From NCBI GenBank assembly GCA_016180645.1, contig JACPAV010000033.1, positions 31,843 through 95,842 of the forward strand: a stretch of 64,000 nucleotides of DNA, read 5' to 3'. The notes under the pieces were generated by a model. The model made no database searches. It had not been told where the DNA came from and saw only the letters and a program-made list of their open reading frames with translations. The position numbers were made by a program, and so were the translations under genes. Shown piece after piece: positions 35,743-56,529 of this stretch. Every line of letters starts with the position of its first letter. Within the stretch, counting starts at the first letter, position 1. Source of the stretch: Nitrospirota bacterium (GTDB taxonomy: Bacteria; JACPQY01).

Positions 35743-35795
35743 TACTTCTCAGGTTCGCCGATGAAGCAAGTTGTGCCAAGTCAAGACTTGACCCC
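35723..35795. repeat. Perfect 19-bp inverted repeat supplying stops to two genes
   Basis: GGGGTCAAGTCTTGACTTG at 35723-35741 and its exact complement at 35777-35795. The left end holds the stop of the truncated hydrolase (35740-35742); the right arm encodes the last residues (Gly-Val-Lys-Ser) and stop of the lipoprotein gene on the minus strand. No transposase is nearby. Confidence 0.92.
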
Positions 35796-38700
35796 TTGCC
35801 CTTGCCCCCGGCGAGAAAGGAAGAAGGCGAGGAGCAAGACGGAGGGGAGGAGGGTGCTCCAGGGGTCGGTGGGAGAGCCGGGGAGGACGGCGCAGCCGCA
35901 GGTCATGCCGGCTTCGGAGGAGTCGGACTTGTACTCGACGGTGAAATGGTACTGGGTGAATTCCTTATTGTCCGCTTCATCGGTGGCGCGGACGAGGAGG
36001 TCATGCGCGCTGCCTTGTTCGAGCCCGCTCAGTTCTACGAGGCCGTCCTGCGGCAGGGCTTGATACGCGGCCCCGTCGAGGCTCCATTCCGCATTGATGT
36101 CGCTCCGTTCGGATACATAGTCTGTGACATGGGCGGTGAGGCGGACGAGGTCTTTCCCTGGATAGGCGGGGCCGATGACGCGGATGACGGGGGGTTGGGA
36201 ATCGACTGCATATTTCAGGACGGCCGGTGTGGAGTCGATGTTGCGATCGGTGTCGATTCCCTGGACTTCCAAGGTGTGCCGACCTTCGATCTGCGGACCG
36301 AGGTGGAGGTCGGGATCAGCGGAGAAGATCTGCCAGGGCATGTCGTCGACGCGCCAGGTGTATTTGGCCGACGTGTCCCGATCGTCTTCATAGAGCACAT
36401 AGACGACGCCGCCCGCCGGGGAGATGCCGTTGGCCACGGTCTGCTTGGGGTCGAGGTTGATGAATTCCTGGGCGGGGCCGCTTTTTGAGAGGGCGATGAA
36501 GGTTTTCGGCGCGGCGGGGCTGTCGGCCACGGTGGAGCCGGCGCCCATGCGGGCCGGGGCGAAGAGGGCGAATCCGCCGCCGCTGCTCTCCGGGGAGCAG
36601 GTGGTGAGGCAATCGCCCTTGGACAGGGCATCTCCCGAGAACATCGACTCTCCGAGTCCGGCCGAGCAGACTTTGTCTCCGGCGAAGCAGTCGGTCGTGC
36701 AGTGGAAGTCCGTGCGCCCATCCGTGCACGTGCCGTCTTTGGCCTCGCACCCTTCGCAGGACTTGTTGCCACAACAGGGTGGGGCGCCGCAGTCTGAGCA
36801 GCCGCAGTTCGTGGCGGTTCCCGTGCACTCGCCCTTTTCATTGGCGGTGTAGACCTTCGAGCCGCACTCCGTGTATTTCTCGCCCTGACCCATCTGGCAA
36901 ATTCCGTCGCCGCATTTGCAGTCTTCGCTGGGTCCGTACCACTTGGCCTCTTCGCCGGGCGCACAGTACTGGCTGTTGCGCGTGGCGCAGTCGTCAGGGC
37001 AGTTCAGCTCCGTTTCGCCGATGTTGAGTTGGCACGTGCCGTCATCGTTGCATACGTCGGAGGGGATGAGGTCCGTTCCGAGCAGGCCGATGATGTCGAA
37101 CTGTTTGAAACGGGCGTAGACGGTAAAGTAGTCTTTGGCGCCGTTGCCATCGGCGTCTGAGCCCTCGGTGCCTTCGTTTTTCGTCATCGGTTCCGGCCCC
37201 ATGTGGAGGAACTTGAACTTGATGCCGGGGATGGAGAACTTTGTCTTCACGTCCGCGTAGAGGGACATTTCGAGCATTTCGCCGAGGAGTTCGGCGATGC
37301 CGCTCGTGAGGCGTTTGCCGCTGTCCGTCAGCGTCTTCCCGGGCTCCACATCGAGATACTGGATGCTGTCGACGTCCAGCTTGGAATCGAAGTAGAGCGA
37401 GATGCAGGCGTCATCGTCGTCCGTGAGGTCGTTGTCGTCGAGCCCGAGGCAGGCGACGCCATCTTTGAAATCGGACTTGGCGCATTTGGCGCAGTCGGCG
37501 ATTTCGCCGTACTCGTTGTCCGCGCAGCCGTATTCGAATCCGATCGGGCAGCAGGTGGGGGAGTTGGCGGAGTCGGTGCAATCCTTGCCGCTGACGGTCT
37601 TTGAGGGCGTGCAGGCCGGATCGGAGTTGGAGCTGTCGAAATCCGAGTTCGGGCAGAAGCCTTCGCCGGTGAAGTAATCCACGGAGACTTGGTATGCCAT
37701 TCGGGTCCGCAGGGACATGAGCCGTTGCTCGGTGCCGTCCAGGTTTTTCAGGATGAAGTCGACGTCGAAGTTGGGGAGGGAGAATTCGAAATCGGTCCGG
37801 CAATCCTGGGGGCAACTGTCTTTCGTTTCGTTCGAGTTGCACACGAAGTCGGGGCAGGTTCCGGCGGTGGTGGAGGTTTTCCAGCGGGGGTTGCCGATCT
37901 TGACATCCGGTGTGCCTCTCGGGATGGTGCGGAGGATGACGGGCTGGCTGGCTCCGCCTTCGGTCTGGAAATTCTTGAAGGCCGGGAAGAGCGTTTCGAG
38001 CGAGCCGAGAGTGAAGGCGAAGGAGGCCGGGTTCGCGATGCTGGTGATATCGAAGCCGTCGAGGAGGCTCGACGCTTCGGTGGAAGAGGTCGAACCGTCC
38101 GTGGATTCGGGCGCGGCCGGCGGGGGGATCTGCATGCAGAAGCTGCCGGAGACGTAGAGTTGGTAGAAGATCCAGCGGAGGAGTTCCTGCGAGATGCCGA
38201 AAGCCATGTGGTAATTGGTGCCGTTGAATTTTCGGTATTCGAATTTCACCGCCGTGGCCGTCTGGGGGTTGGGCGGGCTGGTCTTATCGATGGACTCGAA
38301 GCACTCGGAGCTCTTGAGTTGGGAGAGATCCGTGGTGATCGGCTTCATGCCGAAGTCGAATGGCAGGAGGAAGCCGTTGTTGTCGATGTCCAAGTGGGGA
38401 TAGAAGGCCATGCCGACGAGCGAATTGCCGCCGCCCTGGACGCCGTAGTAGCGCGCGGAGTTGGGGTTGCACTCGGCCGTACACCATTTGGGATCTTCCG
38501 CACCGCCGCAGGTGGGATCGCCCGTAGCAGGAATCGTGCCTTGCGGGATGGCCGTGGGTTGGACCCAACTGGTCATGAGGGCCATGACGTCGATGGGGAG
38601 GGAGCCTTCGAGCATGCCTTTGACTTGATCCATGAGGGGGCCCGCCAGTTGACCGATGAACAGGCCCTTGAAGGCGTTGATGAGTGCGCTCAGGAGGAAA

Positions 38701-39647
38701 GTGCAAATCTCTTTGATGATGGGGACTCCGCACAGGCCGCCCAATTCCAGCGTGATCTTGCCCGCGTCGATGCCGCTGTTATCGAGGCCCTTGGTTGTAT
38801 CCACCCCCAGGTCGATGCTGAGAATGCTCGGATAGGGAGAGAGGTCGGTGCGCTTCACCGGGTCGAGCTTCAGGTACAGGGTGAGGTATTCGATCGTGGC
38901 CCTCCCGCGCTCGAAGCCGAACCCGTCTATCTTGAGCTCGGCGATCATATTGTCGATACGGATATTGATATTCATCGTGTCGTTTGCCGTGTCAATGGGC
39001 AGAGTGGGTGTCATCGAGGAGTAGTCCATGATCTTCCCCATGCAGAATTGCGTGTCGGACGGATTGCAGACGCAATTAGCGTCTCCTGTGCTGTTGGCCG
39101 GGCAGGTGTGGCCGTTCTGGTCCGGGTAGGTGTCCTTCAGCCAGATCTTGACTCCGAGCATATCCGCCACGGGGTCCGTGGGCATGCTTGTGTTGATGAT
39201 CCACTTGATGAGGTCGGATTTCATGAGGTCCAAGATTTGAACCTTGATTTTTTCGAAGCCCGTGTCCGTATCGGCGCCGGAGGGATCGGCGGTGAGCCTG
39301 AACGGGATCGCTTCCGTGTTGAGGAACGGAGCGGGGTTGCAGGTGGCCGGATCGTGTCCGAACTTATCGGCGCAGGCGCCGCCTTTGGTCGGATGGGGAA
39401 TCGGCGAGAGCGGGATTTTGGTGTCTTCATCAACGAAGGACTTTCCCGACTTGGGGGGGAGTGCGGCGCCGCAGCCTCCGCAGCCGGCGCCCTCGGAGCA
39501 GGCGGCGAGCGCGAGCATGGCGAGGATGAAGGCGCCTTGGGCGATTCGTTTGGGGGTGAGAAAGCGCGGGCTAAAGCCCGCGGCTACCGAGGTCTCCACG
39601 AACGTCCTGATCGTCCTTTCTTCGCCTGTTGCTTTGTCACTTGTCAC
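35781..39647 (-). CDS. Large Cys-rich lipoprotein with C-terminal Cys/TM/Arg-Arg sorting tail
   Basis: 1288 residues from a GTG start. The N-terminus (FILAMLALAACSEGAGCGGCG) has a lipobox at Leu-Ala-Ala-Cys, but the first ~30 residues before it are partly encoded by a REP hairpin. The long beta-rich body includes an EF-hand-like DIDNNGF and, after about 600, Cys-rich repeats of the form CNDDGTCQLNIGETELNCPD and CGDGICQMGQGEKYTECG. Near the C-terminus a Y_Y_Y/Ig-like domain (TWRVDDMPWQIF...EGRHTLEVQGIDTD) precedes the tail CGCAVLPG, a TM segment (STLLPSVLLLAFFL) and SRRG, a MYXO-CTERM-like signal. It is last in the four-gene operon. The function is unknown; surface display is inferred. Confidence 0.78.
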   Translation of the reverse strand: MTSDKATGEERTIRTFVETSVAAGFSPRFLTPKRIAQGAFILAMLALAACSEGAGCGGCGAALPPKSGKSFVDEDTKIPLSPIPHPTKGGACADKFGHDPATCNPAPFLNTEAIPFRLTADPSGADTDTGFEKIKVQILDLMKSDLIKWIINTSMPTDPVADMLGVKIWLKDTYPDQNGHTCPANSTGDANCVCNPSDTQFCMGKIMDYSSMTPTLPIDTANDTMNINIRIDNMIAELKIDGFGFERGRATIEYLTLYLKLDPVKRTDLSPYPSILSIDLGVDTTKGLDNSGIDAGKITLELGGLCGVPIIKEICTFLLSALINAFKGLFIGQLAGPLMDQVKGMLEGSLPIDVMALMTSWVQPTAIPQGTIPATGDPTCGGAEDPKWCTAECNPNSARYYGVQGGGNSLVGMAFYPHLDIDNNGFLLPFDFGMKPITTDLSQLKSSECFESIDKTSPPNPQTATAVKFEYRKFNGTNYHMAFGISQELLRWIFYQLYVSGSFCMQIPPPAAPESTDGSTSSTEASSLLDGFDITSIANPASFAFTLGSLETLFPAFKNFQTEGGASQPVILRTIPRGTPDVKIGNPRWKTSTTAGTCPDFVCNSNETKDSCPQDCRTDFEFSLPNFDVDFILKNLDGTEQRLMSLRTRMAYQVSVDYFTGEGFCPNSDFDSSNSDPACTPSKTVSGKDCTDSANSPTCCPIGFEYGCADNEYGEIADCAKCAKSDFKDGVACLGLDDNDLTDDDDACISLYFDSKLDVDSIQYLDVEPGKTLTDSGKRLTSGIAELLGEMLEMSLYADVKTKFSIPGIKFKFLHMGPEPMTKNEGTEGSDADGNGAKDYFTVYARFKQFDIIGLLGTDLIPSDVCNDDGTCQLNIGETELNCPDDCATRNSQYCAPGEEAKWYGPSEDCKCGDGICQMGQGEKYTECGSKVYTANEKGECTGTATNCGCSDCGAPPCCGNKSCEGCEAKDGTCTDGRTDFHCTTDCFAGDKVCSAGLGESMFSGDALSKGDCLTTCSPESSGGGFALFAPARMGAGSTVADSPAAPKTFIALSKSGPAQEFINLDPKQTVANGISPAGGVVYVLYEDDRDTSAKYTWRVDDMPWQIFSADPDLHLGPQIEGRHTLEVQGIDTDRNIDSTPAVLKYAVDSQPPVIRVIGPAYPGKDLVRLTAHVTDYVSERSDINAEWSLDGAAYQALPQDGLVELSGLEQGSAHDLLVRATDEADNKEFTQYHFTVEYKSDSSEAGMTCGCAVLPGSPTDPWSTLLPSVLLLAFFLSRRGQGQGVKS
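39565..39587. repeat. REP-type hairpin, family C copy 2
   Basis: GCGGGCTAAAGCCCGC palindrome followed by GGCTAC. It lies inside the 5' end of the large lipoprotein gene and encodes residues around VAAGFSPRF. Confidence 0.7.
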
Positions 39648-39655
39648 ATGTCACC

Positions 39656-41284
39656 TCAGAAGACGTCGGTTACGAAGGGGTTGAGGAGCCGGAGGAGGAG
39701 GCGCCGTTGGAGGCTTGTATCCGGCAACTGATCGAAACCTTCGTAGGCGATTCCGATGACCCAGCCTTCGAGGGCGGATTCGGAGTATGTGAACGAGGCC
39801 ATGGAGGACCACAGGCCGACGATTTTGGGGGTATCCAGCGACTGGATGGCCCACGAGAACGCCTCGGCGGCTCCCGGGTCGGCGACTTGGACGGCCAGTT
39901 TGAGGTCTCCGGTGGCGCCATCCCGGTAGGAGATGAGCGGACGCTGGTTGGGTCCCATGGCGATGGTGCTCTCGAGACCGGTTCCCGGATCGATGCCGTC
40001 TTCCACGATCTGGCCGACCCATTCTTCGAGGAGAACTTCGCCTTCCGACTGGCTGAATTCGGTGAGGTTTTCTTCGCTGACCAGCACGAGATTCGCGGGC
40101 CGGCCATCTCCAATGGGAGCCACTTCCTCCCTGACTTGCAATGTTCCGCGGTCGAAGTTCTTGATGCGGCGGAAGCGCGGGTACCACCGTTTCAGGTTCG
40201 CATCGTAGACGATGTATTTCAGATCGCCGGCGAGCGCATCGGTGTAGCTGATGTGGAGGCGGCCGCGGTGATCCACGGTCACGGAGGCCCATCGGCCGAC
40301 GTCGCTTGGCGTGCCGTCGCCCGGACTTTGGGGGCCGGCTTGGAGATCGTCAAGGGTCGTGATTTCCCATTCGCCGCCCACCACGGGTTTTTGGGCGAGT
40401 TTGAGATCGCCGTTGGGCTGACCGCCGCCCTCGCGGTTGGGATCGTAGTAGACGATGTACACGGTGTCCGGCTGGTGTTCGGCATCGGCTGCCGAGATGG
40501 CGATGGAGGTTTTGCTCGGATCATCGCCGCGGGCGAGTTGGTTGGGATCGAGGAGGACTCCGGCGACAGGCGGTTTGTCGCCATCCACCGCGGGATCCCA
40601 TTCGCCGCCTTCCTCGGGCCGTTGCCGGTCCCACCGGAGGTACTTTACCGCCCCTTTCCGGGTGGGGTCGAACGAGACATAGGCGGCATGGATGCTGCCC
40701 GATTCGTCCAGCACGGCGGAGATCCACTGGCCGACGTTTCGTGATTCGGAGTCGAGGGTCACGATCTTGTGTTCCCAGACGCCGTCTTTCCGCTTGGTGG
40801 AGCCCCAGGCATATTTGATCTGCTTGTTGTCGTCGTCGTAGTACACGATGTGGGGTCGGCCGGTTGGGTCCACGTTGAGGGCGTTCCATTTTCCCATGCC
40901 ATCGCCCTCTTTGTGGGTTCCCTTGTCTACGGGCTGGCCCTTGACGGTCCGTTTCTGGCCGGTGGGAAGTCCGAACTGGTCCACCTCGTCGAATTCGACG
41001 GTGGGGATCCACTTGCCCGCGCCTTCGGCCGTCTTGGCGAAGTAGATGTATTTGAGCCCCTTCTCCTTGAGATCGTAGTAGGTGAGATGGGGCATGCCGC
41101 GCACGTCGAACTTGAGGGAGGCGCCGATGCCGGCGTCCGAGGAGTCATCGACGACGATGGAAGGGACGGGCAGCGGGCGGACGGAGTCGTGGCTGCCGGC
41201 GCGGCCGCACGCGGCGATACACGCCGCCGAGGCGGCGAGCATCGCCGCATTTGAGATTTGAGATTTGAAATTTGAAATTTTCAT
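39656..41284 (-). CDS. Lipoprotein with propeller-like repeats, paralogue of the preceding operon gene
   Basis: 542 residues. The ATG (41282-41284) overlaps the upstream stop by one base. The first 12 codons come from a small AATTTCAAATTTC-type repeat; a second Met at residue 15 begins a normal lipoprotein signal (LAASAACIAACGRAG). The body has recurring blades of the pattern HxxYYDxxxKxLKY (HLTYYDLKEKGLKYIYF, HIVYYDDDNKQIKYAW, LISYRDGATGDLKLAVQ) typical of BNR/propeller-like folds. It shares RWYPRFRRIKNFD and EEWVGQIVEDG segments with the 41284-42885 product, so the two are tandem duplicates. There is no C-terminal sorting tail. The role is unknown. Confidence 0.82.
   Translation of the reverse strand: MKISNFKSQISNAAMLAASAACIAACGRAGSHDSVRPLPVPSIVVDDSSDAGIGASLKFDVRGMPHLTYYDLKEKGLKYIYFAKTAEGAGKWIPTVEFDEVDQFGLPTGQKRTVKGQPVDKGTHKEGDGMGKWNALNVDPTGRPHIVYYDDDNKQIKYAWGSTKRKDGVWEHKIVTLDSESRNVGQWISAVLDESGSIHAAYVSFDPTRKGAVKYLRWDRQRPEEGGEWDPAVDGDKPPVAGVLLDPNQLARGDDPSKTSIAISAADAEHQPDTVYIVYYDPNREGGGQPNGDLKLAQKPVVGGEWEITTLDDLQAGPQSPGDGTPSDVGRWASVTVDHRGRLHISYTDALAGDLKYIVYDANLKRWYPRFRRIKNFDRGTLQVREEVAPIGDGRPANLVLVSEENLTEFSQSEGEVLLEEWVGQIVEDGIDPGTGLESTIAMGPNQRPLISYRDGATGDLKLAVQVADPGAAEAFSWAIQSLDTPKIVGLWSSMASFTYSESALEGWVIGIAYEGFDQLPDTSLQRRLLLRLLNPFVTDVF
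41249..41284. repeat. AT-rich dispersed repeat forming a start region
   Basis: Tandem ATTTGAGATTTGAGATTTG / AAATTTGAAATTTTCAT units. On the minus strand it supplies the ATG and first codons (MKISNFKSQISN) of the lipoprotein gene. Confidence 0.8.
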
Positions 41285-42885
41285 CAGGTGCCCAGCTTCT
41301 CGAAGTATCGGAAGAGCAGGGTATGTTTCCGACTGCCCGTTTCGAGGATCTCGTAGCCTTGGTAGGCAATTCCCACTTTGAAATCTTCGGGCGTTTTTCC
41401 AGGGATCGTGCGGAGCGAGGACCAGATGCCCACGGTTTTCACATTGTCCAGTGGAACGGTGGCCCAGGCGTGTCCGGTGGGCGAGGGTGTGAGTGAATCC
41501 TGGAAGGCGATCTTGAGATCGCCCGTGGTGCCATCGCGGTAGGACAGGATCGCGCGGTTGAAGGGATCCAGCGTCATGGCTGCGCCCACCCCCGTGCCTG
41601 CTCCGGAGCCGTTGTCCACGATCTCGCCGGCCCATTCTTCGAGAACGGTCGTGCCTGTGCCGGACACATCGCTCATCGGCAGTTCGCTGACTACGCGGAT
41701 GTCCGGTGTGCCGTCTTCCTTCGGCGGGAGTTCCACCTGGAGCTGGTTCTTCCCGACGTCGAAGTTCTTTACCCGCCTGTAGCGCGGGTACCACAGGCTG
41801 GTGGAGGGGTTGTACAAGATCTGTTTGAGGTCTTTGTTCGTCTCGTCGGCATACGCGATGTGGAGGATGCCTTTCGAGTCGATCTCGGCGGCGGTCCACG
41901 TGCCGACGTTGTCTTGGTGCGTATCTCCGCCCACGGTCTTGTCCGTGCTGCCCGGTACTTTGCTCGGCGGCAGATCGTCCAGGATTTGTACGGCAAACGG
42001 CGATCCGGAGGGCGCCGAGATGTTTCGACGGGCGAGTCGGAGGTCGCCGTCCGAGGATGAATAGTAGACGACAAAGACATCCTGTTTGGAGAGGGCGATG
42101 GCGGTGCGCGAACCCTCGGCGGTGGCGAGCGGTTTCCCTACGGGCTCCGTGCCGGGAAAGTTTCCGAGGTCGACCAGATCGATGGTCTCGATTCGGGGCC
42201 GGTCTTTCTGCGATTCCTCGTCCCACGAGCGGTTCCATCGGAGGTACTTCACTTTTTTGAACTGGCCGTCCGTGTAGGCCACATGGATGTTCTGGGGGGT
42301 TGCGTCGTCCATCGCGGCCGTGAGCCATCTGCCGACGATTGCGCCTTCGGAGTCCAGGAAGACTTTCTTGAAGACCCAGGAGCCGTCGCCCGCTTGGCCG
42401 ATGGCCCAGGCGTACTTGAGCTGGCGGGTGTCCCCGTCGTAGTAGACGATGTGGGGCCGATCTTCTCGGTCCAGCACGAGCCAGTTCCAATAGCCCACGC
42501 CTTTCCCGGAGCGCGGACCCATGTCCACGATTTGCCCGCGGATGATCGTCAGATCGTTCTCCAGTTTTCCGCAGTCCTTGTAGTTCGGCTCGGCCGTTTT
42601 GACTTGAGGCTGCCAGTTGAACCGGCCCGGCTCCACTTGGACGCCTTCGATGTATTTCAGGGCCTTGCAGCCGGCGTCGTAGTAGCTGATGTGGGCGTTT
42701 TTCTTGGAGTCGAATTTGAGGGAGGGGGCGATGCCTGCGTCCGAGGTGTTGTCGATCACGGAGCCCGGTGTGAAGGGAATGCGGAAACTGTCCTCGCCGC
42801 CGGAGCGGCCGCAGGCGGCAGCGAAGGCTGCCGCCGTGATGAGTGATGAGTAATGTGTGAAGCGACGGATCATGCCAAGAGCCAT
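41284..42885 (-). CDS. Lipoprotein with propeller-like repeats
   Basis: 533 residues; start supported by GGGAGG about 9 bases upstream. The signal peptide ends in a lipobox (AAFAAACGRSG). Blades repeat through the protein: HISYYDAGCKALKYIE, HIVYYDGDTRQLKYAW, HVAYTDGQFKKVKYLRW, HIAYADETNKDLKQILY and ILSYRDGTTGDLKIAFQ. It has the same layout as the next gene, including LWYPRYRRVKNFD and VLEEWAGEIVDNG. It is second in the operon, between the two very large lipoproteins. No enzymatic motif is visible, and binding of a surface ligand is only a guess. Confidence 0.82.
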   Translation of the reverse strand: MALGMIRRFTHYSSLITAAAFAAACGRSGGEDSFRIPFTPGSVIDNTSDAGIAPSLKFDSKKNAHISYYDAGCKALKYIEGVQVEPGRFNWQPQVKTAEPNYKDCGKLENDLTIIRGQIVDMGPRSGKGVGYWNWLVLDREDRPHIVYYDGDTRQLKYAWAIGQAGDGSWVFKKVFLDSEGAIVGRWLTAAMDDATPQNIHVAYTDGQFKKVKYLRWNRSWDEESQKDRPRIETIDLVDLGNFPGTEPVGKPLATAEGSRTAIALSKQDVFVVYYSSSDGDLRLARRNISAPSGSPFAVQILDDLPPSKVPGSTDKTVGGDTHQDNVGTWTAAEIDSKGILHIAYADETNKDLKQILYNPSTSLWYPRYRRVKNFDVGKNQLQVELPPKEDGTPDIRVVSELPMSDVSGTGTTVLEEWAGEIVDNGSGAGTGVGAAMTLDPFNRAILSYRDGTTGDLKIAFQDSLTPSPTGHAWATVPLDNVKTVGIWSSLRTIPGKTPEDFKVGIAYQGYEILETGSRKHTLLFRYFEKLGT

Positions 42886-42905
42886 CAGAGTGCCCTCCCG
42901 CTCAT

Positions 42906-42970
42906 GCTTCGACGGCGCTCAGCACGAGCGGAAAAAAGCCGTTCGCCCTTGGCCTGTCGAAGGGTGAACG
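42906..42970. repeat. Imperfect inverted repeat (TTCGAC...GTCGAA type)
   Basis: GCTTCGACGGCGCTCAGCAC... (42906-42931) faces CCGTTCGCCCTTGGCCTGTC... (42939-42963) with an A/G-rich loop. It lies between two genes of the lipoprotein operon. Short relatives of the AAAAGCCGTTCG loop part occur near 11822. Confidence 0.65.
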
Positions 42971-42990
42971 CGGCGTTGGCCCTCCAAAGC

Positions 42991-45900
42991 CTACCAACCA
43001 AGTTTCCTCCGAGAGAGCCAGAGGAGGGGTGCGATCAGGAGAAGGACGGCAGAGCCCATGGGCGCTGATGATCCGAAGGGGATGGACGCGCAGGCGCCTC
43101 CGCCCCCTGGCGCGTCTTCCTGCACGCGGAACGGGTGGGAGATTTCGCTGACGTTTTCCGCGTCGTCCTTGGCGCGCAGCTTCAGCTCATGGTCGCCGAG
43201 GGCGAGATCACGGAACTTGAGATCGCGCCGATCGGAGAACTCGCTCCAGGCATTCCGATCCAGACTGTAGGAGACCAGAATCTTCTCTTCCGGCGTCTGG
43301 ACATCGTTGACGGATACGGTGAACTTGGGACTTTCCCGCACGATCGTATTCTGGGTGCCCAGGAGGCGGATGTCCGGTCCCGCGGAGTCGACGCGGAAGT
43401 AGAGTGTGGCGGGCGAGGCATCGACGATGTTGTCCGCCGAGCGCGACTTGATTTCCAGGCGGTGGAGACCTTCGTACAGGCCGGGGAGCATGGCGTAGCG
43501 GTCGCCCGTGTAGATGTGCCACGGGCCGAAATCGAGCTTCCACGAGAAATCCTTGGCGCCGTTCTCACCCGCGAAATCGAGGACGGAGTCGAACGTGGTG
43601 ATTCCCGCTTTCTTGGTTTCCAAGGCGTTCAGGACCAGCCGATCGCCGAAACGCCCGTCGGTGAGTTGGACGAAGGTGTCCGGCTCGAGGGCCGCGTAGT
43701 CGGGAATCGGTTGTTGGCGCGCTGGAGCGGCGCTGGGGCAGGTCGGATTCGGGAGTGTGGCGCAGACGGTGTCGCCGGAGGGCGGCTTCGCGCAGTACTT
43801 GGCGCGAACCGTGCTGCACGTGCCGGCCTGCGGGCAGAGGCTGCAGAGCTGGGCGAGAATCGGCTTGCACATGCCGTCCATGGCCTTCGCGGGATCGGCT
43901 TCGCAGAGAAAGCCCGTCACGAGATTCCAGAGGTCCTTCGGTCCGATGATGTCCGGGTCCGTGTCGGCGTCGTTCTCGCTGTCCAGCAGGTTGAGGCCGA
44001 TGCCGAGGTAGTCGCCTTTGTCCTGGTCGTCCGCCACGGTGTTGCCCCGATCGTCCGTGATGGGGAAGGGATCTTTATCATCGCCCATCGGATCGATGAT
44101 GAGGTCGAACATCGGGAGCGTCATGCCCAGGAGTTCGTTGGGGTTCACTTCGATCTCTCCCACGAGACCCGCCACGACGCCGATGAGGAGGCCGAAGAGA
44201 TCGGAGACAAACTGGTGGGGCGGTTTTTTGGCTTTGTCGAACACTTCCGTGTTGAAGGTGAACGCCTTGATGTCCGGGGCGTTCTCGATGCCGATGCCGA
44301 GGACCATCGTCCAGCTCGGGTTTCCCTGACTGTCCTTGATGGGTTGCCCCTGATCGTTCTTCACTTTGCGGGTTACGTCGATGCCGACGCCGAGATCCAT
44401 TCCGAGGTCGACTTCGGCGGCCGTCTGGTAATTCTTGGCGCGGTCCACGTCTACTTGGATTCCGAATCCCAGATGGGGGATGCGGGCGAGGATGTCCGAT
44501 TGGATTTCTTTCCCGTTGGCGCTGAGGATCTTGCCGCCGATCAACAGCGTCGGAGTGTCTTCAAGCTGAACGTAGCGGCCGTCTTTCGGATCGACGAGTT
44601 TTGGAGCGATGCTGAACTTCACTTCGGCGTTGGGGAAGGCCTTGGACAGGTCGCCCCAGAGGAACCCGATCTTGTCCGTGTTGAAGAAGTCCGCCGGGTT
44701 GATGCCCCCCAGGCTGCTGGAGTCGCTGCCGAGGGATCCCATCAGGGTCGAAACGAGAGCCGCATCGATCCCGATGCAGGCCACGCCGGAGGTGAGCGCG
44801 TTGTACATGACGGCGCTGAGGACGTCTTGGTGGAGACCGATGCCGAGCATCTGGTTGGAGAAGATGAGCGGTGTGATCTCGGTGATGATGGGAGCGGCGG
44901 AGGGCGGCCGCAGGACGCAGTTGAACTCCTTCGGATAGTCGAGCCCGATGCCCAGACCGCCCTTGAGCTCGACGCCGCCCTTCTCGGTTTTGGGATCGCA
45001 GAATCCGGAGTTCTTCCCGTTGCAATCCGCGAGGAAATCGAAGTTGAAGCCGAGGTTGAGCGTGATGCACCCTTTGGTGAGAGGGTGTTCGATGCCGCCG
45101 GAGGCCGAGCAGGTGGAGGCGGTGGACGTGGTGGACGAGCTGCCGCCGAGGCCGGGAATGAGGCTGCTGCCGCTGCCGCCCGTGAGGCCGGCCAGGAGGC
45201 TGGAGGCATCCATGATCGGCGTGGGCCCGAAGTACTTGGCCACGGCCTTGTCGAACTCGTTGGTGAGTTCCAGCTTGAGGTTCAGCTCGAGGAAGGGCAG
45301 GAGGCTGGCGAACTTCTTCGAGAGGGCATCGGGGTTGCTCGGAAGCTCCAGTTTAATGTTGAAGCCGGTCCCCATTTTCACGTACGGGAGTTCCAAGGCG
45401 AGGCTGGTGCCGGGGTTGAGCGGCCGGAGCGGTTCGCCGTTTGCGTCGGCGGATACGGGATCTCCGCCGAGGGGACGGAGGGCAAGCGAGAGAGTGAGAT
45501 TGGGGATGTTGCCCTTGGCGTTAACCGTGACGAATTTGGCCGGATCGGCGACGTATTGGCTTGGATCGGTCGGATCGGGTTTGGGGCCTCCGCCTTCCTG
45601 GACGGCGCAATCCGCCTCACCGGTGCGCGTGGGGGCGCGGAACTTGAAGTCGGCCGACATGGGGGCGAGGTCCACCACCACGGCGAGGGCCTTCTTGTCC
45701 ATGTCCGGCTTGAAGCCGAGTTCGCGCACGGTGTAGTCGAGGGACTTGCCGTCGTTGTCGAGATCTTCGATGTAGAGCGCAAGGCACATGTCCGGGATGA
45801 AGGGATCGAGGCCGAATTTGAATTCGAAGAGCGCATCCCCGCTGCCGCCGAGAAGATCCGTCACCAGGCCGGCGAGGATGTTCTTGGTCATGTTCAGTTC

Positions 45901-46209
45901 GGCGTCCTTGTTGGCGGGGTTGGAGTAGTTGCAGCGGTCTTCCTTGCCGAGGAGGCAGTTCAGGGTTCGGTTGAGGTAATCGAGGAGGGTGTTGTCGATG
46001 CGCAGGTCGAAGGAGTTGCAGAGGTCGCACTTGCCGTCCGCGTCCACGTCGAAGGAGGGGATTTTGACGGTGAGCGGTTTGGCCGGCGCGGTGCTTGAGC
46101 TTGAACTCGATCCGAGGCAGGAGCTGTTGCAACTGCTCCCTCCGGACGAACACGCGAAAACGGCGAGAAATGCGGCGAGAAGAACGCCTAGTCTGAACTT
46201 GTGTCTCAT
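42991..46209 (-). CDS. Large lipoprotein with C-terminal Cys/TM/Arg-Arg tail, first gene of operon
   Basis: 1072 residues from the ATG at 46209, supported by GGAGGG 5 bases upstream; longer starts are not. A lipobox (LAAFLAVFACSSGG) opens the protein, then a Ser-rich spacer, an EF-hand-like DVDADGKCDLC and long beta-rich stretches with Gly/Ser-rich loops (LLAGLTGGSGSSLIPGLGGS). The C-terminal Y_Y_Y/Ig-like part (SWKLDFGPWHIYT...GLHRLEIKSRSAD; VSYSLDRNAWSEF) aligns with that of the 35781-39647 protein. It ends with GGGGACASIPFG, a TM segment (MGSAVLLLIAPLLWL) and SRRK, a MYXO-CTERM-like signal. The two giants are divergent paralogues. The function is unknown. Confidence 0.8.
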   Translation of the reverse strand: MRHKFRLGVLLAAFLAVFACSSGGSSCNSSCLGSSSSSSTAPAKPLTVKIPSFDVDADGKCDLCNSFDLRIDNTLLDYLNRTLNCLLGKEDRCNYSNPANKDAELNMTKNILAGLVTDLLGGSGDALFEFKFGLDPFIPDMCLALYIEDLDNDGKSLDYTVRELGFKPDMDKKALAVVVDLAPMSADFKFRAPTRTGEADCAVQEGGGPKPDPTDPSQYVADPAKFVTVNAKGNIPNLTLSLALRPLGGDPVSADANGEPLRPLNPGTSLALELPYVKMGTGFNIKLELPSNPDALSKKFASLLPFLELNLKLELTNEFDKAVAKYFGPTPIMDASSLLAGLTGGSGSSLIPGLGGSSSTTSTASTCSASGGIEHPLTKGCITLNLGFNFDFLADCNGKNSGFCDPKTEKGGVELKGGLGIGLDYPKEFNCVLRPPSAAPIITEITPLIFSNQMLGIGLHQDVLSAVMYNALTSGVACIGIDAALVSTLMGSLGSDSSSLGGINPADFFNTDKIGFLWGDLSKAFPNAEVKFSIAPKLVDPKDGRYVQLEDTPTLLIGGKILSANGKEIQSDILARIPHLGFGIQVDVDRAKNYQTAAEVDLGMDLGVGIDVTRKVKNDQGQPIKDSQGNPSWTMVLGIGIENAPDIKAFTFNTEVFDKAKKPPHQFVSDLFGLLIGVVAGLVGEIEVNPNELLGMTLPMFDLIIDPMGDDKDPFPITDDRGNTVADDQDKGDYLGIGLNLLDSENDADTDPDIIGPKDLWNLVTGFLCEADPAKAMDGMCKPILAQLCSLCPQAGTCSTVRAKYCAKPPSGDTVCATLPNPTCPSAAPARQQPIPDYAALEPDTFVQLTDGRFGDRLVLNALETKKAGITTFDSVLDFAGENGAKDFSWKLDFGPWHIYTGDRYAMLPGLYEGLHRLEIKSRSADNIVDASPATLYFRVDSAGPDIRLLGTQNTIVRESPKFTVSVNDVQTPEEKILVSYSLDRNAWSEFSDRRDLKFRDLALGDHELKLRAKDDAENVSEISHPFRVQEDAPGGGGACASIPFGSSAPMGSAVLLLIAPLLWLSRRKLGW

Positions 46210-46570: not shown

Positions 46571-47074
46571 CTATTTTGGGGACATCTGCTCACGGACTTC
46601 TTGGAGGAGGTCCTCGGTGATCAGGGTGACTCCTCGCTGCCGGGCGACTCGTTCGATTTCCTGCTGGACCATAGGGCGTATGAAGAGAGGGATTCTCTCA
46701 AGGCGGAGTTCGGCATCGGTAGTCCACGCGAGGGAAGGGCGAGGCTCCACCGAGGGCTTTTTTGCCTCGTCGGCTGCAAGCATTTGCGGAAAAGGACACC
46801 CTGCGCCTGTGCTCGGTGCGACGTTCGACGTTCGACGTTCGACACTCGTTTCGAGGGACTGGCGGGTCATTTCGAGAGGCTGGGCCGGGGCGTCGCGCCC
46901 CCCAACCTTGACACCCAGTGCGTTTACCATCTGGGTTTCACCGGGATTCGTCACCATGGAGAATCGGTGGCCGCACTGGGGGCAGGAGAATGTTATACCG
47001 AGCGATCCATCGGAGATCTTCTCCTGCTCCGCATAGGTCATGAACGTTTCACAGGATCGACAAACGAATTTCAC
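46571..47074 (-). CDS. Zinc-ribbon protein with PCP_red-type C-terminal domain
   Basis: 167 residues. The N-terminus is a zinc ribbon (CRSC and CPQCGH pairs within the first ~40 residues). The C-terminal ~50 residues (AELRLERIPLFIRPMVQQEI, then ERVARQRGVTLITEDLL) match the small PCP_red domain known from the light-independent protochlorophyllide reductase B subunit but also found in iron-sulfur proteins of non-phototrophs. The middle segment SVERRTSNV is encoded by a tandem CGACGTTCGACGTT repeat (46819-46846). There is no chlorophyll gene here. The Mrp ATPase gene lies upstream on the same strand, consistent with an iron-sulfur link, which is inference. Confidence 0.75.
   Translation of the reverse strand: MKFVCRSCETFMTYAEQEKISDGSLGITFSCPQCGHRFSMVTNPGETQMVNALGVKVGGRDAPAQPLEMTRQSLETSVERRTSNVAPSTGAGCPFPQMLAADEAKKPSVEPRPSLAWTTDAELRLERIPLFIRPMVQQEIERVARQRGVTLITEDLLQEVREQMSPK
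46819..46846. repeat. Short tandem repeat (CGACGTT)n inside a coding sequence
   Basis: Three to four tandem CGACGTT units. They encode the linker between the zinc ribbon and the PCP_red domain. Confidence 0.8.
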
Positions 47075-47099
47075 GGCGGTCCTCCCTTCGTCAGCCTTA

Positions 47100-47261
47100 G
47101 TGCGTCTAACAGAATGCGTAGGGGAGTGTCTTCAGACCCTCCCAACAAGAGGGAGCAACCAAGAGGGAGCACCTGTAGGTGCTCCCCTACGAGGAGGCAA
47201 GGACAAGAGGGAGCATCTGAAGATGCTCCCCTACGAATCGGCAATCTGTTAGCGGCTCTTA
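47100..47261. repeat. Nested-palindrome repeat, copy 5 (about 161 bp)
   Basis: Begins GTGCGTCTAACAGAATGCGT and ends ATCTGTTAGCGGCTCTTA. It contains all three hairpins; the first arm is slightly mutated (GGGAGTGTCT against AGACCCTCCC). Its last bases TTA (47259-47261) form the stop codon of the Mrp-type ATPase on the minus strand. Confidence 0.92.
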
Positions 47262-48200
47262 TGATGCTTGGGACCCTTCCAGAAGTCCCGCAAGTTTGGC
47301 GGCGATCTCACTGAACGGCGCGGGAATCTTCCCATGCTCCGGCCCGGCGCCCACGGCCGGATCGAAGGGGACGGCGGCGAGAAGGGGGATTCCCAGCTCA
47401 CCGGCGATGTTTTCCAGGCGCTCTGCGCTCAGGTTCCCGCCCTCGAAGATATTCTCGACGTGGCCGCAGTGGGAGCAGGTTTTTCCCGCCATGTTGACTA
47501 CTAGTCCAAGCGGCCGGATGCCGGAATCCCGCGCGTAGGCCACGGATCGGCGCACCACGTCCAATGCGATCGCGGAGGGGGTGGTCACCATGACCGCGCC
47601 GTCCAGATCCGGAATGAAACTCATGAGGGCGGGCGGCTTGTCCGCGGCGGCGCCCGGGGGCAGATCGGCCAGCCACCAATCCAGTTCGCCCCATAGGATG
47701 TCCGCCAGCAGTTCCCGGAGGACCGTGTATTCCAGGGTGCCGAGCCAGACGGGACTCAGCTCCATGGGTCCGTTCCACCGGGTAGGCGAGCCATGCTTCA
47801 GGAGAAAATCGAGCGAGGCGATTTTCATGCCCAGAGGTCCCTCGATCGGTGTCGCGCCATCGGCCCGAAAGGCTAGGGACCGGCCATTCAAGCCGAGCAG
47901 CTTGGGGAGGCACGGGCCGTTGAAATCGACGTCCAGCACTCCTACCCGATTTCCCAGGGCGGCCAGGGCCGTGGCGAGGTGCGCGGTGACGGTGCTCTTC
48001 CCGACGCCGCCTTTGCCGCTCATGACGAGGATTTTTCGTTTGATTCCGGCCATTCGAGCATGCACCGCGGAGGTCTGTTCGTGAATTTGGGAGGCGATTT
48101 TCGCATCGTCCGCAAATCTAATATTTTTGAGAATGGTTTTCAGGTCGCCGCTCACGAGGGGGATGCTAGAAGATTCCCCCTTGCGGGTCAATGGATCCAT
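47259..48200 (-). CDS. Mrp/NBP35-family P-loop ATPase
   Basis: About 313 residues from the ATG at 48200; the frame is open further but would overlap the divergent gene at 48280. A deviant Walker A (SGKGGVGKST) follows KILVM, then DVDFNGPCLPKLLG, a Walker B-like WWLADLPPGAAADKP and the C-terminal Cys pair CSHCGH, all hallmarks of iron-sulfur cluster carrier ATPases (ApbC/Mrp). An N-terminal helical segment of ~50 residues precedes the P-loop. It would transfer [4Fe-4S] clusters in the cytosol. The stop codon is provided by repeat copy 5. Confidence 0.87.
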   Translation of the reverse strand: MDPLTRKGESSSIPLVSGDLKTILKNIRFADDAKIASQIHEQTSAVHARMAGIKRKILVMSGKGGVGKSTVTAHLATALAALGNRVGVLDVDFNGPCLPKLLGLNGRSLAFRADGATPIEGPLGMKIASLDFLLKHGSPTRWNGPMELSPVWLGTLEYTVLRELLADILWGELDWWLADLPPGAAADKPPALMSFIPDLDGAVMVTTPSAIALDVVRRSVAYARDSGIRPLGLVVNMAGKTCSHCGHVENIFEGGNLSAERLENIAGELGIPLLAAVPFDPAVGAGPEHGKIPAPFSEIAAKLAGLLEGSQAS

Positions 48201-48279
48201 CCCACGGCCTGGGAGGGCCGTTTGACATCGGAAGGGTGAGCGGGGAAGATGCCTGGAACGGTCGCGAAACGAATCCAAG

Positions 48280-48702
48280 ATGAGAGCCATCTGTTTATTG
48301 ATTGTCGCGGGCGTGCTCGCGGCTGCGGGCGCGCAGGACCCTTTGAAGGTGTCCTTGGAAAAGCTTGTGCGCTCGCCGGAAGAGTTCGTGTCGATCCCTC
48401 TGGTCGAGGTGGAGGGCGTTCTCAAGAACGCGGGCCAATCCTATTTCAAGGGGGCGCGTTTTGAGATACGCGATGGAGGGTCGGCCCTCGAAGTGGCGCC
48501 GTGGCTTCCCCTCGAAGTGGCGCCGCCGAGGCCGGGTTCGGATACTCCAAGACGAACGGTGATGTCGGACTTCCTCAGCAAGAGGGTGCGTCTCCAGGGC
48601 CGGATTGTGCCGGCGGGCTCGGAAGGGGCGAAGGACAAGAAGGAAACGCATCGATTTTCAGTCGAGCGCGCCGAAGTGATTTCCCCGGAGAGGCTGAAGT
48701 GA
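48280..48702 (+). CDS. Small exported protein, unknown function
   Basis: 140 residues with a short signal peptide (AICLLIVAGVLAAAGAQD). The mature part is beta-rich with an OB-fold-like pattern (SIPLVEVEGVLKNAGQSYFK; DFLSKRVRLQGRIV). A small tandem duplication gives LEVAPWLPLEVAP. The stop overlaps the GTG of the M6 protease by 3 bases, so the two are probably translated together. No family is recognised with confidence. Confidence 0.65.
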   Translation: MRAICLLIVAGVLAAAGAQDPLKVSLEKLVRSPEEFVSIPLVEVEGVLKNAGQSYFKGARFEIRDGGSALEVAPWLPLEVAPPRPGSDTPRRTVMSDFLSKRVRLQGRIVPAGSEGAKDKKETHRFSVERAEVISPERLK

Positions 48703-50573
48703 TCTTGAACCCGCGAACGCCGATTGCCGCGCTTCTCATCGGGTGTTTGGGTTGTGGGGGTGGGGACGAATCGCAAACCCGCCAGTACGCCGCTCCCTCG
48801 GACCCCGCCTCATGCCCGTCCGTGGCCGCCGAGAAGAAAGTTCTCGCTCGATCCCGTCTTGCCCCCTATCCCCGGCCGATTTCGTGCGCCTTCCGGCCGC
48901 GTCCGTCCCTGCTCGATCCCCTTACGGGTCGATTCTTGCACACGGGCCGAGCGGTGCCCCAGCTCGGAATGCCGAATGTGAGCCGGCGCGATTTCACGCT
49001 CCCGGAACGCCCCGAGCCCCGACAAATCGTGACACCCCGCCCGGCGATTCGGGACGTGCGCCCCCCCGGCGAGATTCGCGTTCTGATTCTCTTGGTGGAT
49101 TTCAACGACAACCCCCACGATTCGGGCATCCCCGTGTCGAAAATCGAGGACACCTTCGTCGGCTCGATCTCCACCGGTAGCATGCGGGAATACTATGAGG
49201 AAGTTTCCTACGGGAAACTGAAACTTTCCGGTCAGGCTTTCGGCTGGCGCTTCATCACCACGTCATCATCGAGCAAGTGCGGGAGCACGCCGATCTATTC
49301 CTGTTACGTGAACGAATCCTGCGGCGAGGGATCGGGATTGTGTCCCTCCGAGCCGAACTCCCTAACCCTTGCCCGGGACGCCGTGAAGGAGTTCGATTCG
49401 ACCGTGAACTTTTCACAGTTCGACGGGAACGGGGACGGGTTTGTGGATGCGCTCATGGTGGTCCATCCGGGGCTGGGGGGCGAGGAGTCGAGCCTCAAGC
49501 GCGACCTGTGGTCCTCCATGACCATGCTCTCGAACTCCCCGGTGGTGGACGGGGTGCGCGTGCGGGATTTCATCGTTGTTCCCGAGCGGAGCTGCACCGG
49601 GCCGGCGCGCGATCCGTGCTCCCAAAAAGGATCGGTGAACATCGGTGTCATCGCGCACGAGTTCGGTCACATCCTCCAATTGCCGGATCTGTACGACACG
49701 GGTCGCGGCTCCAGCGACGGCGTCGGCATTTACAGCATCATGGGCACCGGCGCGTACGGTCCCGACAATGAATCCCCCTTCAAACCGACACATTTCCTGG
49801 CCTGGGAGAAGGCGCTCCTCGGATGGCTCACACCGCGCACCTTGGCGAAGGATGATTGCGATGCCCGGCTCATGCCCGTTGAAACCAACGAGGACGCGAT
49901 CCGGATCGATGCGAATGGGCCGGATGATTCCCAATATTTCCTTCTTGAAAACCGGCAGCCGGTGGGATTTGACAGTCGAATGTCAGGGAAAGGGCTGCTG
50001 ATCACCCACATCGATGAAAAGGTTTGCGAGGCGGGATTTGACGACAACACGGTGAACGCCGATCCGAAACACAAGTGCGTGGACGTGGAAGAGGCCCACG
50101 GGGGGACCCAGCAGTTGGACGCGGACGAACGGGAGCACAATCAGGGGACCGCGGAGGATTTCTTTCCGGGTCCGAAGGGCACGAAGACGGAGTTTAAGCG
50201 CGACAGTGACCCTTCCTCGGCGCCGTACATCGACGGGCTCCGGAAGGATTCCGGGGCGAATGTGGCTTTGACGAACATTCGGCTGGACGGATCCGATGTC
50301 CGCCTCTGCGCTTCGGGCGCGGCCGCCGGTTGCCCCGCCGCGTCCGAAACGGACATCTCCACCGCGCCCGAGACCGCCATCGGAAAAGGGACGGAGTCGA
50401 CGAACAGCACGGGGGCTGGATCGGGCGCCTCCACGCCGGTGTCCAAGCCGGCGTCGGAGCCGGCGTGGGGGTGTACGGCATATTCGTTTTCCTCGTCCGG
50501 CACAGGCGGGCTATTCGACCTTCTCGCCCCGCTCGCGGCGTGGCTCTTCCTGCGTCGCCGCCGTTCCGGTTGA
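48699..50573 (+). CDS. M6-family secreted metalloprotease with C-terminal Cys/TM/Arg tail
   Basis: 624 residues from a GTG overlapping the upstream stop. The N-terminus (IAALLIGCLGCGGG) looks like a lipoprotein signal. The peptidase region carries EIRVLILLVDFNDNPH, SMREYYEEVSYGKL and the zinc motif HEFGH (320-324) followed by ILQLPDLYDT, as in immune-inhibitor-A-type M6 proteases. A Ser/Thr/Pro linker then leads to WGCTAYSFSSSG, a hydrophobic stretch (LFDLLAPLAAWLFL) and RRRRSG, a MYXO-CTERM-like tail also present on two neighbours. It should be a surface or released protease. The small upstream exported protein might be an accessory factor or inhibitor (inference). Confidence 0.87.
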   Translation: MILNPRTPIAALLIGCLGCGGGDESQTRQYAAPSDPASCPSVAAEKKVLARSRLAPYPRPISCAFRPRPSLLDPLTGRFLHTGRAVPQLGMPNVSRRDFTLPERPEPRQIVTPRPAIRDVRPPGEIRVLILLVDFNDNPHDSGIPVSKIEDTFVGSISTGSMREYYEEVSYGKLKLSGQAFGWRFITTSSSSKCGSTPIYSCYVNESCGEGSGLCPSEPNSLTLARDAVKEFDSTVNFSQFDGNGDGFVDALMVVHPGLGGEESSLKRDLWSSMTMLSNSPVVDGVRVRDFIVVPERSCTGPARDPCSQKGSVNIGVIAHEFGHILQLPDLYDTGRGSSDGVGIYSIMGTGAYGPDNESPFKPTHFLAWEKALLGWLTPRTLAKDDCDARLMPVETNEDAIRIDANGPDDSQYFLLENRQPVGFDSRMSGKGLLITHIDEKVCEAGFDDNTVNADPKHKCVDVEEAHGGTQQLDADEREHNQGTAEDFFPGPKGTKTEFKRDSDPSSAPYIDGLRKDSGANVALTNIRLDGSDVRLCASGAAAGCPAASETDISTAPETAIGKGTESTNSTGAGSGASTPVSKPASEPAWGCTAYSFSSSGTGGLFDLLAPLAAWLFLRRRRSG

Positions 50574-55920: not shown

Positions 55921-56529
55921 CTAACCGCGGAGCATCGTGGCTGCGATGTACATTCCTGCGTTGACGGCGGTGTGGGTAATGAGGGCGGGCCAGAGGCTTC
56001 CCGAGCGGTTTTTCAGCCAACCCCAGAAGAATCCGGCAGCCAGTGGTGCAAGGACGCTGGGAAGCGCCCCTGCCCATCCGACGTAGGCCGCGTAGAGCGG
56101 GTAGTGCATCAGGGCAAAGCATGCCGAGGTACGAATGAGACCTGTTTTCGGCTGGAGAAACCCGCGCCAGTAGTATTCCTCGGCGAACGGGTTTACCAGA
56201 ATCCAGTACACGCCGAACAGTCCCCATGGCTCCGTCGAGAGAAATGCCTGCATGTCTGCCGGTGGCTGGAACCCTCGGGATCGTAATAGGAAGCCGGCTA
56301 CCAGAAACGCGAGAAGGATCAGCGCCGAAGTCGCCAGGGTCAGGATGATCCATCGTGCGGTGGGCATGGAAGCGAGTCCTGCCTCCCGCATCGAAATCCG
56401 GGGAATGCCGATGCAGCCCACGTGATCCGCGATCAGCGTTGGCCACACCATCCCTCCGCTTGCCAAAGAGGCGACCAGTACCACCACGGGCGGCCACAGC
56501 GAAAGAGTCAGGATCGCCATTCCGGGCAT
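55921..56529 (-). CDS. CPBP-family intramembrane metalloprotease
   Basis: 202 residues, about five to six membrane segments. The catalytic CPBP/CaaX signature is complete: AEEYYWRGFLQ (motif 1), CFALMHYPLYAAY (motif 2, His) and ITHTAVNAGMYIA (motif 3, His). Members include CaaX proteases, bacteriocin-processing enzymes and the proposed myxosortases that process MYXO-CTERM tails. As three proteins with such tails are encoded 5-20 kb away, it is a candidate sorting protease (inference). It is convergent with the NTF2-like gene. Confidence 0.85.
   Translation of the reverse strand: MPGMAILTLSLWPPVVVLVASLASGGMVWPTLIADHVGCIGIPRISMREAGLASMPTARWIILTLATSALILLAFLVAGFLLRSRGFQPPADMQAFLSTEPWGLFGVYWILVNPFAEEYYWRGFLQPKTGLIRTSACFALMHYPLYAAYVGWAGALPSVLAPLAAGFFWGWLKNRSGSLWPALITHTAVNAGMYIAATMLRG

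Follow-up and report, generated by a model that had tools for sequence, protein, structure and literature searches.

The window analysed here, a stretch of 64,000 nucleotides from a Nitrospirota genome, carries on its minus strand four consecutive lipoprotein genes (A, B, C and D), which fall into two paralogous pairs, namely two giants (A and D) and, between them, two propeller-like proteins (B and C), as a sequence-only reading of the same DNA had proposed (Table 1). The frames are open over the lengths given in that reading, the genes are spaced by 105 bases (A-B), -1 base, i.e. a 1-base overlap (B-C), and 8 bases (C-D), and all four products combine an N-terminal signal with a lipobox Cys as in substrates of signal peptidase II, the lipobox-like motifs being read directly as VFAC, AAAC, IAAC and LAAC. 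The TTGACA that had been pointed to as a possible start of transcription is present at 46257-46252 (minus), but a consensus scan gives no promoter-like site there. Upstream of the operon, a PCP_red-domain protein and an iron-sulfur ATPase of the Mrp/NUBPL type are encoded at 46571-48425 (-). The neighbouring M6 metallopeptidase gene is divergent from the operon and not part of it; its product is, to judge from the tail, of the same sorting class as the operon giants, and an M6 metallopeptidase gene lies near the operon in the relative G001 (L092) too.

Table 1. Positions in the window of the operon, its domains and the adjacent metallopeptidase gene
Feature	Position	Strand	Remarks
Gene A, giant lipoprotein, 1072 aa	42991..46209	-	lipobox VFAC; TULIP ~60-818; Ig pair 838-1034; Cys1040-TM-Arg tail
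TULIP (BPI/LBP/CETP-type) region of A	43756..46032	-	strongest support for C-barrel (~450-710)
Ig/FnIII-like domain pair of A	43108..43698	-	VIA matches to FnIII pairs, residues 839-1033
C-terminal Cys-TM-Arg tail of A, MYXO-CTERM-like	42994..43092	-	ACASIPFGSSAPMGSAVLLLIAPLLWLSRRKLGW
Gene B, propeller-like lipoprotein, 533 aa	41284..42885	-	mature start CGRSG
Gene C, propeller-like lipoprotein, 542 aa	39656..41284	-	passes Pfam cut-off for BNR_4; mature start CGRAG
Gene D, giant lipoprotein, up to 1288 aa	35781..39647	-	start uncertain
TULIP region of D, residues ~106-884	36996..39332	-	profile homology
C-terminal Cys-Gly-Cys-TM-Arg tail of D	35784..35903	-	TIGR03901 14.6 bits, below cut-off 20
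M6 metallopeptidase, GC-TM-RRRR tail	48501..50573	+	PF05547 61.4 bits

The kinship of A and D had been placed in a common C-terminal Ig-like region, and BLAST indeed aligns only the last ~256 residues (27% identity, E 3e-19), a region in which members of the A family give weak matches to Big_13 and Y_Y_Y. Profile comparison shows that the relationship is not confined there, the D-type and A-type profiles matching at E 6.8e-51 with the Ig region included and still at 8.9e-22, over 248 columns, when the upstream TULIP region is taken alone; the TULIP profile finds D itself at E 1.3e-131, D being part of its training set. The 15 A-type rows group together (92/96) in a 30-sequence tree, with the A protein of the window beside those of L094 and L184 (98/95), and a second, weakly supported group holds the 12 D-type rows (58/29). 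Regarding the start of D, the annotated GTG at 39647 places ~33 residues ahead of the hydrophobic core. Of note, the palindrome GCGGGCTTTAGCCCGC (window 39566-39581) is present in 17 exact copies in the genome (0 for its reversed control), and one of these copies lies within the annotated 5' end of D, where it encodes part of the pre-core residues.

Scanned against Pfam and NCBIfam, the four proteins gave nothing usable except BNR_4 (PF15892) in C (33.1 bits, cut-off 27.3), and the nature of the large unassigned part of the giants emerged from weaker similarities. Their two-barrel likeness to BPI, LBP and CETP was written down from the sequence before any structure was computed. PF02886 (LBP_BPI_CETP_C) is the only Pfam family matched by more than one member of the A family, below threshold in each of two scans (E 0.067 and 0.048), the best score of 13.5 bits against a cut-off of 23 leaving these proteins outside the Pfam family as defined. 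When a profile of the TULIP region from 15 relatives was run against 177,635 PDB sequences, the top two matches were human BPI entries (E 0.011 and 0.012), the third being unrelated (E 0.86); BPI emerged once the alignment had been trimmed to this region, searches of the PDB with full-length alignments of A and D having given only noise and Ig-type matches.

Structural models point the same way. The AlphaFold2 model of A from the window has a mean pLDDT of 52; with VIA its top rows are BPI (Z 12.4 and 11.2), CETP (9.8) and LBP (9.1) being matched as well, although the rmsd exceeds 20 A when the full span is superposed, and Foldseek with the whole model was swamped by Ig matches. The model of the orthologous region from L094 has a mean pLDDT of 51, mostly 60-86 in the C-barrel, and with Foldseek it retrieves BPI at rank 1 (E 5.7e-9) and LBP at ranks 2-3 (1.4e-6), no other family falling below 0.001 and the remainder of ranks 1-30 being mainly other TULIP proteins; VIA aligns it with BPI over 212 residues (Z 10.9, 6.0 A) and with LBP over 148 residues (Z 9.7, 3.8 A). 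That the C-terminal barrel of A adopts the TULIP fold is well supported by these models together with the profile. The Foldseek alignment covers both halves (637 columns), with a pLDDT below 55 in the N-half of the L094-region model; the N-terminal half of the TULIP region of A is likely, though tentatively, a second barrel, and D would be a TULIP protein by homology only.

The propeller-like proteins B and C are paralogous from end to end (38% identity, E 1.7e-98 by BLAST) and share repeated blades of the (H)IxYYDx...LKY type, B being without any Pfam match. A profile of the propellers, which had been proposed as a check, matched none of the PDB sequences. A mature start of Cys-Gly-Arg/Lys was found in 16 of 17 distinct propellers adjacent to TULIP genes (14 with CGR) vs. 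1 of 42 other lipoprotein-like ORFs at the same loci, in a count assembled by eye that left out near-duplicate loci as well as the Myxococcota-type propellers (L107, L112 and L187), which do not have the motif.

The pairing of giant and propeller recurs in about nine lineages. Within the family of the window, G001 repeats all four genes in identical order, at ~49-65% identity, but as it shares the wider neighbourhood as well (M6 peptidase, transaldolase and others), its match argues only weakly for a functional unit; both this genome and that of the window carry a second, paralogous locus with one propeller between two giants (A'-P-D'). Far from being scattered in relatives, the genes keep the A-P-P-D order outside the family, namely in family f21, with A-P-P-D in L094 (G168) and A-P-P-D-D in L184 (G306), and there the flanking genes differ from those of the window. 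A-P or A-P-P arrangements are found in L098, L100, L103 and L104, A-P pairs being present in families f15, f45 and f50, and in G248 (L187) A and P lie side by side as separate genes. Giant and propeller occupy one uninterrupted ORF in two Myxococcota records (L107 3527-7855 + and L112 6860-10930 +), in the order TULIP, Ig pair, MYXO-CTERM-like tail, second hydrophobic lipobox segment and propeller, an arrangement that would imply cleavage into two products; the records stem from MAGs and could reflect misassembly, although the two are divergent and show the same layout.

The propeller partner is not universal, since some A or D genes have no B/C-type neighbour. Giants without one occur in L108, G129, G265 and G092 and in Calescibacteriota, solitary D-type genes exist among the relatives, and in L102, L186 and L085 the giant is followed by another large lipoprotein instead of a propeller. 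The Calescibacteriota-type giants without propeller are those of L095-L097, L099 and L101, several of which adjoin pilin-like genes. Further lipoproteins of ~900-1080 residues come after the giant or propeller in L102 (5045-7912), L104 (2652-5888), L100 (14986-18051) and L186 (3160-5862); among such related large lipoproteins, PKD domains are present in L100 and L186, and LVIVD propeller repeats in L100.

At their C-terminus, A and D as well as all 15 of the 15 A-type proteins in the set end in a tripartite tail of Cys, TM helix and Arg, laid out in the A type (15/15) as Gly/Ala-Cys, a short polar stretch, the TM helix and basic residues. The TIGR03901 (MYXO-CTERM) model does not match the tail of A, and that of D stays below its cut-off; these tails are best called MYXO-CTERM-like, as they may work in the manner of MYXO-CTERM without being assigned to TIGR03901. 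D-type proteins share the tail except for four from second loci (D'), which stop 4-6 residues past the Cys, without a TM helix. These are L078 6744-10073 (-), L080 5087-8218 (-), L087 4974-8159 (+) and L088 6035-9223 (-), with ends GCETLP, GCVQVP, GCTQVPY and GCAASEH, i.e. the near-terminal Cys is kept and the sorting helix gone. Readthrough of the stop codons of D-type genes in the second locus was considered and rejected, as translation beyond them yields either unrelated sequence or the gene that follows.

In Myxococcus, the myxosortase MrtX is required for cutting and surface anchoring of the MYXO-CTERM protein TraA (PMC11980579). The genome of the window encodes a protease of this family (L151 1132-1827, Mrt_core 133.2 bits, cut-off 100) and the type II secretin GspD. 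An Rce1-like (CPBP) intramembrane protease gene lies ~9.7 kb from the operon, at 55921-56529 (-); with 26 bits to Mrt_core its product was rejected as cognate sortase, the L151 protein being the better candidate. Across 386 genomes, Mrt_core at its curated cut-off is found in 10 of the 16 with tailed TULIP genes, as judged by eye, vs. 12 of the 370 without (p 2e-10), and at 85 bits, a threshold picked after the scores had been seen, in 13/16 vs. 12/370 (p 5e-15). The association holds between families (8/9 vs. 11/249, p 1.5e-9), this family count being the only control for shared ancestry. The three tailed genomes without an Mrt_core match (G001, G190 and G265) are 80-86% complete.

Taken together, we are somewhat inclined to see in the operon an envelope-anchored complex for the binding or transfer of lipids. 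The giants A and D would be Sec-exported TULIP proteins of the BPI type, in whose barrels the acyl chains of an amphipathic lipid would lie, a cargo that we infer along with a direction of transfer, and whose Ig pair would serve as a stalk. A myxosortase-family protease would process the Cys-TM-Arg tail, leaving the protein lipid-anchored, and the giants would reach the outer surface, probably through the type II secretion system. The propeller lipoproteins B and C may dock to the giants, holding them in position or contributing to the choice of cargo. A more specific version is advanced tentatively, and with doubt outweighing confidence: diderm bacteria would have a cell-surface machine dedicated to lipid transfer, in which paired, myxosortase-sorted BPI-like TULIP carriers would be docked on propeller lipoproteins and which, in some Myxococcota, would arise from one ORF that encodes the giant with its MYXO-CTERM-like tail and then a second signal with the propeller, the product needing to be cut in two.

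Alternatively, the C-terminal TM helix could stay uncut, so that A and D would remain inner-membrane proteins and convey lipids through the periplasm in the manner of bridge-like lipid carriers, with the N-terminal lipid, in the clade of the window, tying them to the outer membrane as well. Both proteins do join an N-terminal lipobox to a C-terminal TM helix, and lipid binding by TULIP barrels is known from other systems (PMC6791001). This periplasmic route nevertheless appears unlikely, as the tail coincides with myxosortase-family proteases, which cut such tails in Myxococcus (PMC11980579), as several A-type proteins outside the clade of the window (e.g. in L102 and L094) have no N-terminal lipobox, and as the four D' paralogs have no TM helix.

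The sequence-only reading had favoured a surface complex for adhesion, predation or polymer binding, in which the TULIP region would be a mere protein scaffold. Ig pairs and propellers are frequent in adhesins, and the operon combines both with surface-type tails. What stands of that proposal is a conserved, undescribed-looking unit of envelope proteins that is not a chance neighbourhood; the three suggested functions have found no specific support. No adhesion or polymer-binding domain was recognised by Pfam or NCBIfam in the four proteins, and the large unassigned part of the giants has turned out to be of the BPI-type TULIP fold, in a superfamily whose members generally bind lipids. This fold speaks for lipid binding or transfer instead and makes the adhesive role quite improbable.

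Since BPI and LBP are the closest solved structures, the giants might also be antagonistic proteins that bind to the outer membranes of diderm competitors and perturb them. This is very unlikely, given that they are cell-anchored rather than released, that no immunity gene was recognised beside the operon, and that a shared fold alone shows no function. Finally, independent members of expanded families that are neighbours by chance, to which the paralogous second locus, the solitary giants (Calescibacteriota, L108 and G129) and the solitary D-type genes could lend themselves, are a reading already largely refuted and barely credible in view of the A-P-P-D order kept outside the family, the repeated A-P pairs, the two in-frame fusions and the shared Cys-Gly-Arg/Lys start.

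Returning to the lipid-binding or transfer complex, its parts can be set against known systems. As the earlier reading had surmised, no description of the four-gene unit was found in a literature search, most subscription journals lying outside its scope. With BPI/LBP/CETP (PF01273/PF02886), the giants share the C-barrel fold, the L[TN]T[DET]xFgxxlP motif and apparently two tandem barrels; they differ in being bacterial, far larger, with long insertions, an Ig stalk and the Cys-TM-Arg tail, and in scoring below the Pfam cut-off. The TULIP fold is already known in bacteria from DUF4403, YceB, DUF2140, DUF2993 and P47/OrfX2, among the bacterial families known in 2019 according to Levine (PMC6791001), where DUF4403 is described as a full-length BPI-like pseudodimer. 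Unlike the giants, these proteins come with neither propeller partners nor a sortable tail in the parts of PMC6791001 drawn on here. The Pfam families of known bacterial TULIPs matched neither the TULIP regions of 15 A-type proteins, scanned at E up to 10, nor 9 proteins of the D type, scanned at E up to 5, in searches where the HMMER filters limit weak matches.

As for sorting, the likeness to the MYXO-CTERM/myxosortase system (PMC11980579) lies in the Cys, the TM helix and the Arg-rich end, together with an Mrt_core protease and a type II secretin in the genome; the difference is that the tails of the giants do not reach the TIGR03901 cut-off and are found beyond Myxococcota. Likewise, C resembles the BNR_4 propellers by its score above cut-off and by the repeated blade motif, but B has no match to this or any other Pfam family, neither has a relative among PDB sequences, and both are coupled to TULIP genes and have the conserved CGR mature start.

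The movement of lipids beyond the outer membrane of diderm bacteria is still largely an open question, for which this unit provides a concrete candidate. Besides, the unit extends the TULIP superfamily by a bacterial branch, and it suggests that myxosortase-like sorting of large substrates takes place outside Myxococcota.
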